A stretch of DNA of 41,821 nt from Mesorhizobium sp. (lineage in GTDB: Bacteria > Pseudomonadota > Alphaproteobacteria > Rhizobiales > Rhizobiaceae), in the NCBI GenBank assembly GCA_004020545.1, contig SAQE01000057.1, forward strand, positions 1 through 41,821. Reading direction: 5' to 3'. Of this stretch, positions 1 through 41,770 are shown piece after piece. The first letter of the stretch is position 1. Each line of letters starts with the position of its first letter. The position numbers were made by a program, and so were the translations under genes. The notes under the pieces are model-generated. The model worked only from the letters and a program-made list of their open reading frames with translations. It was not told where the DNA came from and made no database searches.

Positions 1-36
1 GAGGGGTTAGGGGTGGGGGTATTCGTAGGGCGCAAG
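1..36. repeat. Partial palindromic intergenic element (family A)
   Basis: The first 36 bases (GAGGGGTTAGGGGTGGGGGT, then ATTCGTAGGGC) match the right arm of the element at 7688-7740 almost exactly. The window edge therefore cuts through another copy of this short interspersed repeat. About 100 bases follow it before the first gene, with nothing recognisable in them. Confidence 0.75.
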
Positions 37-7528: not shown

Positions 7529-7597
7529 GCGATCGGCTTTCTTTCTCCCCGTTTATGGCAGGGCAATCGCATATGGATTCTTGTGAAGAAGGACCTC

Positions 7598-7740
7598 CAC
7601 CCTAACCATCCCCACAAGGGGGAGGGAATGCTGCCGCGCGCCTCTATTGCGGAACGCCGGTGGTCTTGCAGAGGCCCGCGGTTACGAAAGTCCCCCTCCC
7701 CCTTGTGGGGAGGGGTTAGGGGTGGGGGTATTCGTAGGGC
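7598..7740. repeat. Composite palindromic element (family A) inside the ABC operon
   Basis: Two inverted arms, CCCTAACCATCCCCACAAGG near 7602-7621 and CCCTTGTGGGGAGGGGTTAG near 7700-7719, enclose about 70 bases with their own inverted repeat (CCTCTATTGCGG and CCGCGGTTACG region). The right arm continues into GGGGTGGGGGTATTCGTAGGGC, the same sequence that opens this window. In RNA it would form a very stable stem. Between a binding-protein gene and its permease genes it could lower downstream expression or protect the upstream mRNA; that role is inference. Confidence 0.85.
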
Positions 7741-12704: not shown

Positions 12705-12717
12705 CGCGCTATTGGAG

Positions 12718-12912
12718 ATTGGCGAAAGCCGAGGCGACGGCCAATCTCCCCCCTTGCGGGGGAGATGCCTGGCAAGGCAGAGGGGGGTGCTGTCCCGCCG
12801 ACGTCTCCAACTGGCCAAAAGTCGAGGCAGCGTGACGACCTGGCCAAGGTAGCGTTCCTTCGCACCCCCCTCTGGCCTGCCGGCCATCTCCCCCGCAGGG
12901 GGGGAGATTGGC
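12718..12912. repeat. Composite palindromic element (family C)
   Basis: Two inverted arms, CAATCTCCCCCCTTGCGGGG from 12742 and CCCCCGCAGGGGGGGAGATTG ending at about 12910, each flanked by a second block (GGCAAGGCAGAGGGGGGTGC and GCACCCCCCTCTGGCCTGCC). The same blocks, together with the flanking words TTGGCGAAAGC and CTGTCCCGCC-GCGTCTCCAAC, recur at 37118-37293. It lies between two convergent genes (the fused oxidoreductase and the Lrp-type regulator) and could serve as a transcript end. Confidence 0.85.
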
Positions 12913-12929
12913 AGCTGCGCCGCCTCCGC

Positions 12930-14596: not shown

Positions 14597-14751
14597 CCCT
14601 TCCCCCCCTTGTGGGGGAAGGTGGATCGGCGCTCAGCGCCGAGACGGATGAGGGGTGCTCCAGGGAACGCCAGCGTCTCACTCCGCTGGAACACCCCTCA
14701 TCCGTCGCCTTCGGCGACACCTTCTCCCGCAAGGGGAGAAGGGGGAGCTAA
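14597..14751. repeat. Composite palindromic element (family B), copy 1
   Basis: Left arm: CCCCTTGTGGGGGAAGGTGG, then a GGCGCTCAGCGCC hairpin and ACGGATGAGGGGT. Then a 36-base centre (14657-14692, starting GCTCCAGGG). Right arm: ACCCCTCATCCGT, a CGCCTTCGGCG hairpin, and CACCTTCTCCCGCAAGGGGA. It fills the convergent gap between the saccharopine dehydrogenase-like gene and lpdV. A second copy with the same arms but inverted centre lies at 16187-16336, on the other side of lpdV. Confidence 0.9.
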
Positions 14752-16145: not shown

Positions 16146-16186
16146 GTCAGCTGCATCCTTTCGGAGAATAGCGCGGCGCTTCTCCT

Positions 16187-16336
16187 TCTCCCCTTGTGGG
16201 AGAAGGTGGATCGGCGCGTTAGCGCCGAGACGGATGAGGGGTGTTCCAGCGGAGTGAGACGCTGGCGTTCCCTGGAGCACCCCTCATCCGTCGCCTTCGG
16301 CGACACCTTCTCCCACAAGGGGAGAAGGGGGAGCCC
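16187..16336. repeat. Composite palindromic element (family B), copy 2 with inverted centre
   Basis: The arms match copy 1 at 14597-14751 in the same orientation (left hairpin GGCGCGTTAGCGCC, right hairpin CGCCTTCGGCG). The 36-base centre (16243-16278, GTTCCAGCGG...CCTGGAGC) is the exact reverse complement of the centre of copy 1. It lies in the bkdB-lpdV gap, so the distal gene of the operon is separated by a strong hairpin. Confidence 0.9.
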
Positions 16337-16403: not shown

Positions 16404-17804
16404 TCAATCCACAAAGATCAGCGCCGGCGTCTCAAGCAGCGCCTTGATCCGCTGCACGAACACCGCGGCGTCCCAGCCGTCGATGACGCGGTGATCGAAG
16501 CTGGACGACAGGTTCATCATCTTGCGCGGAATGAACTGCGTGCCGTCCCATACCGGCCGCACCATCATCTTGTTGACGCCGACGATCGCCACTTCCGGAT
16601 AGTTGATGACGGGCGTCGTCGCCACGCCGCCCATGGCGCCGAGCGAGGTGATGGTGATGGTCGAGCCGGAAAGCTCCTCGCGGCTCGCCGTGCCGGACTT
16701 GGCGGCGTCAGCGAGACGGTTGACCTCGGCGGCGCAGTCCCACAGGTCGCGTGCCTCGGCATGCTTGACCACCGGCACCACGAGGCCGTTGGGCGTCTGC
16801 GCGGCAATGCCGATATGGATGCCTTCATGCTGATGGATGATGCCGGCCTCGTCGTCGAACACGGCGTTGAGGTTCGGCTGGTCGGCGATCGCCTTGACCA
16901 TGGCCCGCATCAGGAAAGGCAGCAGCGTCAGCTTCGCCCTCTCCGCCCCCTTGGCGGGTCGCTTCTCCTTGTTGAGCGTGGCGCGCAGCTCCTCGAGCGC
17001 CGTGACGTCGATCTCCTCGACATAGGTGATGTGCGGGATGCGCGATTTGGCGAGCGCCATCTTCTCGGCGATCTTGCGCCGCAGGCCGACGATCTTGATG
17101 TCCTCGACGCCGTCCTTGCGGGCAAGGCCGGTCGCGCGGGCAAGCTGCGGACCCCGCGCCAGGAAGGCCTCGATGTCCTCATGGCCGATGCGCCCGGCCG
17201 GCCCACTGCCCGGAACCTGGCGCAGATCGATGCCGGCTTCCTTGGCGCGCAGCCGGACGGCGGGTGAGGCCAGCGGCTTTTCGCCTTCGGGCCGTGGCGC
17301 GCCGGAAGTCGGCGCTGAACCAGCAGCCGTCGGCGCAGTACCCCCACCCCTAACCCCTCCCCACAAGGGGGAGGGGGATTGCAGCGCCGGCTCACTCTTG
17401 GGCGTGGGAACTTTTTTGGGCGACCCAGCCTCGGATTTGGCGCTGACGTCAGCGGCCATGGCGCGTTCCCCTCCCCCTTGTGGGGAGGGGCTAGGGGTGG
17501 GGGTAATTTCAGCCGCAGCCGTCTCATCTTTAGGCGAAGAACCTGGAGCGACATTGCCTTCGCCGGCCACCTTCAGCCGCACGATCGGCGAGCCGATCGC
17601 CACCGTGTCGCCGATCTCGGCGCCCAGCCACACGATCTCGCCGTCAACCGGCGACGGGATTTCCACGGTGGCCTTGTCGGTCATGACGGCGGCCAGCACC
17701 GCATCCTCGCGCACGAGATCGCCGATCTTGACGTGCCATTCGACAAGCTCGGCCTCGGCGACGCCTTCTCCGACATCGGGAAGCTTGATCACATATTCAC
17801 CCAT
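16404..17804 (-). CDS. bkdB: Dihydrolipoamide acyltransferase (E2) of the branched-chain 2-oxoacid dehydrogenase complex, with repeat-derived linker
   Basis: A 466-residue core enzyme that carries acyl groups on lipoyl-lysine and passes them to CoA. Lipoyl domain: residues 1-79 with lipoylated K44 (MTDKATVEIPS). Peripheral subunit-binding domain: about 178-215 (SPAVRLRAKEAGIDL, GRIGHEDIEAFL). Catalytic domain: about 235-466 with H438 and D442 (DHRVIDGWDAA). The linker between the first two domains is unusual. Residues about 100-114 (TPTPSPSPQGGGER) and 142-156 (SPSPLWGGVRGGG) are translations of two inverted copies of palindromic element family A. ATG 17804 has GAGGAG upstream. It follows bkdA2 closely (11 bases) in the operon. 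The branched-chain assignment rests mainly on the E1alpha and E1beta neighbours. Confidence 0.93.
   Translation of the reverse strand: MGEYVIKLPDVGEGVAEAELVEWHVKIGDLVREDAVLAAVMTDKATVEIPSPVDGEIVWLGAEIGDTVAIGSPIVRLKVAGEGNVAPGSSPKDETAAAEITPTPSPSPQGGGERAMAADVSAKSEAGSPKKVPTPKSEPALQSPSPLWGGVRGGGTAPTAAGSAPTSGAPRPEGEKPLASPAVRLRAKEAGIDLRQVPGSGPAGRIGHEDIEAFLARGPQLARATGLARKDGVEDIKIVGLRRKIAEKMALAKSRIPHITYVEEIDVTALEELRATLNKEKRPAKGAERAKLTLLPFLMRAMVKAIADQPNLNAVFDDEAGIIHQHEGIHIGIAAQTPNGLVVPVVKHAEARDLWDCAAEVNRLADAAKSGTASREELSGSTITITSLGAMGGVATTPVINYPEVAIVGVNKMMVRPVWDGTQFIPRKMMNLSSSFDHRVIDGWDAAVFVQRIKALLETPALIFVD
17340..17381. repeat. Palindromic element (family A) inside the bkdB coding sequence, copy 1
   Basis: The plus-strand sequence ACCCCCACCCCTAACCCCTC, then CCCACAAGGGGGAGGGGG, is the same unit seen in the intergenic copies at 1-36 and 7598-7740. 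Here it is read in frame on the minus strand as SPSPLWGGVRGGG in the E2 linker. No stop codon or frame change results. Confidence 0.9.
17468..17509. repeat. Palindromic element (family A) inside the bkdB coding sequence, copy 2
   Basis: Inverted relative to the copy at 17340-17381: plus-strand CCCCTCCCCCTTGTGGGGAG, then GGGCTAGGGGTGGGGGTAA. It is read on the minus strand as TPTPSPSPQGGG. The two copies are 86 bases apart, matching the two-arm layout of the composite element at 7598-7740. Confidence 0.9.
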
Positions 17805-18831: not shown

Positions 18832-20384
<1,553 letters not shown>

Positions 20385-21428: not shown

Positions 21429-21456
21429 GCGATTGGCCGATCCCCTGAGCGCCCCT

Positions 21457-21565
21457 CGTCGTTTTCGGGCTTGACCCGAGGATCCATGCCGTCACCTTCC
21501 ACGTAGAGTGCGGCCGTGCAGAATTCTGTAACCGCTGCAACGTTTTAGCGTCACGGCATGGACCG
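21457..21565. repeat. Interspersed palindromic element (family D), copy 1
   Basis: The element reads CGGGCTTGACCCGAGGATCC, then ATGCCGTCAC, a middle with GTGCAGAATTCTG, and ends GTCACGGCATGGACC, so its ends are inverted repeats of each other. A related copy with the same order of blocks lies at 41662-41770. It lies in the convergent holA-parB gap. Confidence 0.8.
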
Positions 21566-34065: not shown

Positions 34066-34251
34066 ACACCCCTCATCCGACCGAGCTTCGCTCGGCCACC
34101 TTCTTCCACAAGGGGAGAAGGAAGAACGTGGCGACAGCGTCCCGCAGATACCACCAGGTGGCGATTTGCAGCGGCGTTAGCGCAGGACTTTCCTTCTCCC
34201 CTTGTGGGAGAAGGTGGCTCGGCGCTTTAGCGCCGAGACGGATGAGGGGTG
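34066..34251. repeat. Composite palindromic element (family B) between ppsR and maf
   Basis: Left arm ACACCCCTCATCCGACCGAG with a GAGCTTCGCTC hairpin, then CACCTTCTTCCACAAGGGGA. Right arm CCTTCTCCCCTTGTGGGAGA with a GGCGCTTTAGCGCC hairpin and ACGGATGAGGGGT. The arms are about 65 bases apart. Arm order is the reverse of the lpdV-flanking copies, and the centre is a different sequence. Confidence 0.85.
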
Positions 34252-37089: not shown

Positions 37090-37117
37090 CGGATAACCGG
37101 ACAGGCGGCGATCCTTC

Positions 37118-37293
37118 GCACCCCCCTCTGCCCTGCCGGGCATCTCCCCCACAAGGGGGGAGATTGGCAGTTTCGGCGCTTCGCCCGCTCCTCGACGTTG
37201 TAAATTGGCGAAAGCTTAGGCGACATCTGATCTTCCCCTTGTGGGGGAGATGGCCGGCAGGCCAGAGGGGGCGCTGTCCCGCCAGCGTCTCCA
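37118..37293. repeat. Composite palindromic element (family C), copy 2
   Basis: Left arm GCACCCCCCTCTGCCCTGCC, GGGCATCTCCCCCACAAGGG and GGGAGATTGG (37118-37167). Right arm from 37228: TGATCTTCCCCTTGTGGGGG, AGATGGCCGGCAGGCCAGAG. Both arms and the tail CTGTCCCGCCAGCGTCTCCAAC match the element at 12718-12912. It sits between the convergent dnaQ and secB. Confidence 0.85.
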
Positions 37294-37850: not shown

Positions 37851-37947
37851 GAGCCTTTGTCCTTTTGCCTGGGCAGCATTGCTGACCGGATTGAAATCGG
37901 GGGTTCGCTACCATGGTCGGCATGACAAGACAAGTTTTGCCGCCTTT

Positions 37948-38110
37948 ATGCATGTCGCCCAAAAGTGCGAAGCGGTTTTGGGAGAACGACATGCATCAGG
38001 CAATATCTGCATGTCGCCCAAAGTGCGTAGCGGCTTTGGGACAACGACATGCGTCAGGCAAAAGCTGCAGGTCGTCCAAACTGCGCGGCGGTTCCGGGCA
38101 ATGACGTGCA
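37948..38110. repeat. Three tandem copies of a palindromic element upstream of secB
   Basis: Copies at 37948-37996, 38008-38054 and 38066-38110, with a spacing of 58-60 bases. Each begins like TGCATGTCGCCCAAA and ends like TTTGGGACAACGACATGC. The third is the most degenerate (TGCAGGTCGTCCAAAC). A single copy lies at 1746-1794. They fill much of the 289-base gap between secB and fxsA. Confidence 0.85.
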
Positions 38111-41605: not shown

Positions 41606-41661
41606 TCGGCGCGTTGCTCATGACAACGTTCGCGGTTTTGGATTAGCGGCGAAGCTCTCTT

Positions 41662-41770
41662 CGTCATCCTCGGGCTTGACCGGAGGATTCATTCCATGAC
41701 CTCCGCCGAGGAGTGCAAAGGCGCAGAATTCTGCACCGTCGAGACGCTCGAATGTCACGGAATGGATTCT
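41662..41770. repeat. Interspersed palindromic element (family D), copy 2
   Basis: The element reads CGGGCTTGACCGGAGGATTC, then ATTCCATGAC, a middle with GCGCAGAATTCTGC, and GTCACGGAATGGATTC at the end. It has the same order of blocks as the element at 21457-21565, with about 30 percent of bases changed. The last 50 bases of the window show nothing recognisable beyond an ATCGAT-GA-ATCGAT repeat at 41789-41802. Confidence 0.75.

Follow-up and report, generated by a model that had tools for sequence, protein, structure and literature searches.

How does repeat DNA that otherwise lies between genes come to be part of a protein, and does the protein gain by it? The question is raised by bkdB in a stretch of 41,821 nucleotides from Mesorhizobium sp. 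(contig SAQE01000057.1), which we analysed whole and call the window. It is one contig of a 6.99-Mb genome (G000) in 188 contigs, and the best named relatives of its BkdB protein are from Mesorhizobium. An earlier note on this DNA had claimed that an intergenic palindromic element lies in frame inside the gene. The features that bear on this claim are as follows; the family letters A to F used throughout are labels of this analysis.

16404..17804, minus strand: bkdB, encoding an E2 protein (dihydrolipoamide acyltransferase) of 466 amino acids with the Pfam domains Biotin_lipoyl, E3_binding and 2-oxoacid_dh; E1-like and lpd-like open reading frames adjoin it
17468..17505, minus strand: arm 1 (in gene order) of a family A element, an inverted repeat encoding TPTPSPSPQGGG, residues 101-112
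17377..17467, minus strand: middle between the arms, about 30 amino acids, linker-like in composition and different from the middles of other copies
17339..17376, minus strand: arm 2 (in gene order) of the same element, an inverted repeat encoding SPSPLWGGVRGGG, residues 143-155
7593..7740: family A element outside genes, with two arms and a 67-nt middle
1..36: single family A arm, from an element cut by the contig end

An intergenic element inside a gene

The gene encodes an E2 protein, with a lipoyl domain at residues 6-77, an E3-binding domain at 177-212 and an acyltransferase domain at 233-464. No NCBIfam model matched BkdB at its cut-off, and the name bkdB rests on the earlier note and on the E1-like and lpd-like neighbours. 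The insert spans residues 101-155, in frame, between the lipoyl and E3-binding domains. These Pfam limits support the view that it is located in a tolerant inter-domain linker, and the encoded peptides are those originally reported.

The two inverted arms are 38 nt each, 97% complementary and 91 nt apart. Positions 17339-17378 are identical to the reverse complement of 7691-7730 at 40/40 nt, synonymous positions included, and a blastn comparison of the bkdB linker with the window gives E = 8e-16 for this copy. Positions 1-31 are in turn identical to 7710-7740. The check on the peptide words SPSPLWGG and SPSPQGGG that the earlier note proposed was run at the DNA level: the 21-nt core of the arm has 54 matches in the G000 genome at up to two mismatches, and its reversed control has none, so the matches are not due to chance. 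We give practically no credence to the idea that Pro/Gly-rich linkers have simply converged on a low-complexity sequence. Linkers of this kind are indeed Pro/Ala rich; however, the 40/40 identity, synonymous positions and all, together with a reversed pattern that has 0 matches in 7 Mb, refutes chance likeness. The presence of an intergenic element in frame inside bkdB is thus confirmed.

Repeat families of the window and the genome

We regard family A as a palindromic repeat, REP/BIME-like and non-autonomous; most of the genomes searched have from several to many copies. REPINs and BIMEs are dispersed genomic repeats in which a variable spacer separates two short palindromes in inverted orientation. 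Family A shares the paired, inverted short palindromes and the variable spacer, as judged from 16 pairs outside bkdB. These pairs come from loci fetched incidentally, and an intergenic position is confirmed for part of them only. Two layouts occur. In type I the arms point inward and follow the pattern ACCCCCACCCC-TAAC-CCCTCCCCACAAGGGGGAGGG, with a middle of 63-79 nt in the 16 pairs; the element in the bkdB linker is of this type. In type II the arms point outward, each has an extra small hairpin, and the element often abuts start or stop codons (judged by eye). A nested element of about 40 nt, family F (TTGCCGGGGCGAGCCACGGGTCTCGCCCGTCCTTCGGACC), is found in the arm stems of family A and of other repeat families (L240, L242, L248, L255, L246). 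In some other genomes, family A or F elements lie near bkdB and outside its linker (L187, L188, L164, L237).

Family A is not a GTAG REP or REPIN. It lacks the GTAG tag, and the PF01797 profile of RAYT-type Y1 transposases, which was detected in 5 of 14 controls, found none in G000, the one genome of interest searched; a RAYT-driven REPIN is rejected on this ground. Nor is it a CGTC REP, as it has no CGTC tag and the borders of its arms are formed by ACCCCCACCCC and TAAC-like spacers. The RIME and ABC mosaic elements are intergenic repeats of Rhizobiales, and family A, being an intergenic repeat of rhizobia, is like them by description. Rfam gave 0 matches in the window at the gathering score.

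The window contains further palindromic repeats:

21448..21528: relative of family B, the family present in BkdB linkers elsewhere in Mesorhizobium
41653..41733: another relative of family B
37103..37271: family E element that matches a BkdB linker in a distant relative, L211 (89.7% over 68 nt, E = 4e-20)
12712..12926: another element of family E
14597-14748, 16178-16334, 20305-20342 and 34095-34251: a further palindromic family (CACCTTCTCCCACAAGGGGAGAAGG), which matches the family C and D linkers

One copy of the CACCTTCTCCCACAAGGGGAGAAGG family sits between bkdB and the lpd-like gene. Separately, a 58-nt repeat around GCATGTCGCCCAAAAG...CGGTTTTGGG occurs at 1739-1796 and 37941-37998 (84% identical) and is perhaps one more dispersed family.

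Family B has the features of the CGTC REPs as these are set out in the main text of PMC3733652. Its arm in the linkers reads CGTC-ATCCTCGGG-CTTGT-CCCGAGGAT, that is, a CGTC tag, a 9-bp stem beginning AT and a 5-nt loop (8-9 bp and 4-5 nt in that text). It shares nothing with the hairpin cores of the other families beyond chance. The cores of family A, of the C/D repeats and of family E have an identical tip of 11-13 nt around CCCACAAGGGG. The notion of several unrelated families is weakened by this common tip and by C and D matching the same repeats of the window, and only B is clearly unrelated. As far as their sequences can tell, A, C/D and E may be distantly related or of common origin, or they may have converged.

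The linker in relatives of BkdB

Relatives were collected in three steps. In the first set all 61 of 61 genomes had a match, with E <= 2e-174 only in G000, in 36 genomes of the same genus and in G049; the remaining matches, none better than 2.8e-55, are probably other E2 proteins. From 438 named loci 80 were kept. In a family-wide search 117 of 199 genomes matched at E <= 1e-100, and from these we took the best 30 loci (3 already included) and 40 of the remaining matches, so that distant forms are under-sampled. Linkers were cut from 183 loci and yielded 164 distinct sequences.

Family A was recognised in 44 of these linkers (4 decayed), B in 8, C in 3, D in 1 and E in 2 (1 decayed), and in 106 no repeat was recognised. 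The decayed A and E calls were made by eye, some distant rows without a repeat may be paralogues, and the query itself bears arms. All but two of the A linkers (42/44) keep the reading frame. They occur in Pseudaminobacter, Aliihoeflea, Aquamicrobium, Aminobacter and further genera as well as in Mesorhizobium, and the relatives thus rule out an event peculiar to a single genome. The earlier note had described one insertion in one rhizobium; the in-frame insertion stands, but the same linker holds family A in other genera and other families elsewhere. Its expectation that some strains would lack the insert was borne out by close relatives such as G011, the sister of G000, and the 106 linkers without a recognised repeat show that the relatives do not all carry the same linker.

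Seven of nine non-A linkers match repeats of the window. All three family B linkers tried do so, with best E values of 1e-6 to 5e-6; the peptide of this family in the linker is PSSSGLSRG...DPRDKPEDDG. Among the three C linkers compared, L196 matches at E = 1e-6 and L184 weakly (E = 7e-4). The D linker has a weak match (E = 5e-4), and one of the two E linkers matches, that of L211. The linkers of L190 and L203 have no match among the window repeats.

The median linker length in Mesorhizobium is 255 nt with A (26 linkers), 252 nt with B (8) and 189 nt where none is recognised (53). In G000 the linker is 264 nt, compared with a plain linker of 186 nt in G011, its closest relative on the tree. The net gain is therefore about 22 residues by the medians or 26 by the G000-G011 pair, and not the roughly 55 residues predicted from the size of the insert.

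Insert states change between sister species. On a tree of E1 beta and the conserved parts of BkdB (38 genomes, with states assigned by eye), a minimum of 14 changes accounts for the three states, compared with 14.9 for shuffled labels, and the states are no more scattered or clustered than those labels. On a family tree of all 164 rows at least 41 changes are needed and 52 with shuffled labels; here the states are somewhat clustered, as inheritance would give.

This patchiness might be explained without recurrent arrival. A single ancient family A insertion in a common ancestor could have been inherited vertically, with many losses or with recombination of linker alleles. The presence of A in several genera and the modest clustering on the larger tree agree with this, as does the resemblance of the upstream flanks (KSPEVTAA-like) between species from separate clades. 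However, L112 carries B and its sister L126 is plain. Furthermore, no clear recombination tract adjoins the linker in seven pairs: the divergence of E1 beta and of the N and C domains rises at most slightly beside it, which leads us to reject whole-tract recombination as the source of the patchiness. Overall we regard a single insertion as unlikely.

Two observations concern the assemblies. In G020 and G014, both outside the 183 loci, the assembly breaks inside arms within the bkdB linker (L066-L069), and the window itself begins in a family A arm (1-36), an illustration of how repeat-bearing genes get split in draft genomes. In the bkdB linker of G031 (L065) a G run in arm 1 accompanies a frameshift, which might reflect slippage of the G runs of the arm or a sequencing error.

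Arms and middle

The earlier note had proposed that a full two-arm unit was inserted. Both arms are indeed there, but the middle of about 90 nt looks like linker, and the net gain in length is about that of the two arms alone. Hydrophobic residues make up 10% of bkdB middles and 9% of plain linkers (p = 0.47), as against 23% of the translated middles of other copies (p = 2e-7 versus bkdB middles). The latter contain a stop in 13 of 32 readings, and their length is a multiple of three in 3 of 16. The insertion may have brought in a complete unit whose middle was then reshaped; alternatively, the sequence between the arms may be native linker.

The arms are much more alike than the gene around them. 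Among 30 A linkers the fourfold-site identity is 0.883 and 0.893 in the two arms, compared with 0.685 in the N domain and 0.646 in the C domain; two clean arms were required, which dropped 8 of 38 A linkers from this and from the comparison of arm and middle divergence, and arm 1 is out of register in L095 and L170. For the 10 linkers outside the main Mesorhizobium clade, a group that includes one record named M. camelthorni, the values are 0.867 and 0.919 versus 0.594 and 0.558. In 429 of 435 pairs arm identity is above the fourfold value. Whatever the divergence, it stays at 0.87-0.95; the identity of the middles declines from 0.64 to about 0.49, near the 0.46 of shuffled sequences. This likeness is inflated, since decayed copies escape recognition and are counted as none and linkers without two clean arms were dropped.

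Constraint on the protein does not account for this likeness. Changed arm codons in 28 linkers are synonymous and nonsynonymous in ratios of 12:26 and 17:40, and the possible changes in ratios of 32:76 and 34:83. These are close to the proportions of random single-base changes, and selection on the arms at the protein level is rejected accordingly. By these comparisons the bkdB arms look young, or homogenised with the repeat pool of the genome, and arms that look so much younger than the gene argue, within the limits of the recognition bias, against a single old insertion. On the other hand, the frame of arms recognised at the DNA level is the same in 33/33 cases for arm 1 and in 35/37 for arm 2, even though a different frame is open; the two that deviate, L065 and L216, are frameshifted. 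A single arm frame fits one old insertion better than many, or else one preferred target.

The arms might also be maintained as RNA. Under such a reading the paired arms form a hairpin, or the proline-rich residues a slow stretch, that delays translation between domains or shapes the mRNA of the bkd operon, and the palindrome itself is selected. In folding predictions the arms of the linker RNA do pair into a single long helix, several palindromic families share the linker, and the two arms of one gene complement each other slightly better than shuffled partners do (p = 0.003-0.006, in shuffles that ignore relatedness). Yet 106 of the 164 linkers have no recognised repeat, and the linkers of three other E2 proteins in G000 are plain, with no palindrome visible by eye. 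Moreover, among 26 local pairs of the stem or loop closure that carry changes, only 10 still pair (5/9 in arm 1, 5/17 in arm 2). Compensation is not in excess, which speaks against selection for the hairpin, and we consider this explanation improbable, more so than a single insertion.

Links to the repeat pool of each genome

The arms in bkdB share features with other copies in the same genome. Four genomes have a TCAA loop in their bkdB arms, and there the other arms are TCAA-rich (0.40 to 1.0), with TCAA in 27/27 arms of M. camelthorni. The contrast of these 4 with 28 genomes whose bkdB arms have ACAA or other loops has a one-sided p = 0.014, a value uncorrected for relatedness. There are exceptions: L132, L111 and L106 have TCAA-rich pools yet ACAA arms in bkdB.

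The nested element behaves in a similar way. In G021 a 36-nt F element sits within the bkdB arm, where it has three substitutions, and within family A arms elsewhere; in its sister G012 the nested F is present only elsewhere and is absent from bkdB. Likewise, bkdB contains a nested F in G016 and lacks it in the sister genome G020.

Copy number points in the same direction. Counting exact 21-nt arms only and leaving out L143, the median number of A copies is 15 where bkdB carries A (27 genomes), 10 where it is plain (9) and 2 where it carries B (4). The one-sided p for A versus plain is 0.037 (27 vs 9, G006 counted), again uncorrected for relatedness.

Family A in other proteins

In G000, 30 candidate open reading frames cross arms, three of them spanning the bkdB insert, and family models confirm bkdB and HrpB only. 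Two proteins of this genome besides BkdB deserve description:

G000:C177:105302-107848 (L284, L074): HrpB helicase (TIGR01970), whose inter-domain region contains an in-frame family A element of type II
G000:C112:68156-69739 (L314, L075): third protein, with a family A element in an Ala/Glu-rich tail

Among 30 genomes HrpB carries family A in frame in 14 (decayed in G003), another family in 1 (Aminobacter) and nothing in 15. The empty inter-domain site measures 99 nt in 11 of these 15 genomes and 96-123 nt in the remaining 4; the 123-nt site of G258, scored as empty, may hold a remnant. Family A copies in HrpB have several layouts and frames, a further point against deriving the inserts from one ancient event. 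The insert states of bkdB and HrpB go together in 21 genomes (8, 1, 3, 9; Fisher p = 0.0075, uncorrected for relatedness), as expected if the element load of a genome matters.

The third protein, a putative SUPV3L1-like helicase, has no Pfam match. We treat it as real because it has a match in 20 of 20 genomes, of which 7 have both arms, 3 one arm, 1 a decayed element and 9 none.

The probable account: a tolerated insert with turnover

We consider it likely that the repeats in the bkdB linker are tolerated and effectively neutral for the protein, and that they turn over. Copies landing in an inter-domain linker in a stop-free phase would be tolerated, because such a linker would accept almost any hydrophilic sequence, and those landing in folded domains would be purged. 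Over time the bkdB linker may be recolonised or overwritten by the same or by other palindromic families. Its arms could be refreshed from the repeat pool of the genome through gene conversion or re-insertion, and the middle would drift under a linker-like composition. The uniform arm frame and the weaker copy-number p value led us to lower our confidence in this account slightly and to raise that in a single insertion by a similarly small step.

A further proposal is that the linker is a standing slot, occupied and replaced by distinct palindromic families, whose arms are kept in concert with the genomic copies by conversion, so that its sequence would be set by the dynamics of the repeat pool and not by selection on the protein. 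We hold this to be a real but somewhat doubtful possibility.

Known systems

Rickettsia palindromic elements (RPE) are, in an excerpt of PMC10969869, in-frame palindromic repeats in unrelated genes that add a peptide to the protein. The bkdB insert is of this kind, being an in-frame palindrome in a gene and absent from the orthologue in the sister G011, and the analogy with Rickettsia drawn in the earlier note holds. The likeness is drawn at the level of kind. The insert differs from RPE in belonging to another bacterial order and in that several families are found in one and the same inter-domain linker, in many species.

Such insertions have also been published from outside Rickettsia. In-frame REPs are already known as a kind from Rickettsia and from the CGTC REPs of Di Nocera 2013, for which the main text of PMC3733652 describes paired inverted units and known intragenic units in several species, mentions flexible linkers or loops, and reports no dedicated transposase. 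That main text makes no mention of Mesorhizobium, lipoyl or dehydrogenase. Our literature search, which covered titles and the starts of abstracts and left subscription papers mostly outside its scope, found no palindromic repeats in a lipoyl linker and none of these repeats in Mesorhizobium. Nor did it bring up a case of one linker hosting several families in different genera, or of arms in coding sequence that track the pool of repeats.

Implications

For curators of rhizobial proteins, repeat-derived peptides such as SPSPLWGG, PSPQGGG and PRDKPEDDG should not be read as domain homology, and it is worth bearing in mind that draft assemblies can break inside repeat-bearing genes. More generally, part of these proteins is written by the repeat DNA of the genome. 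With one linker in many species, several families, plain sisters and a parallel in HrpB, the gain, replacement, decay and conversion of such inserts would become measurable. Together they amount to a replicated natural experiment on how parasitic palindromic repeats enter coding sequence, and on whether proteins gain from them.
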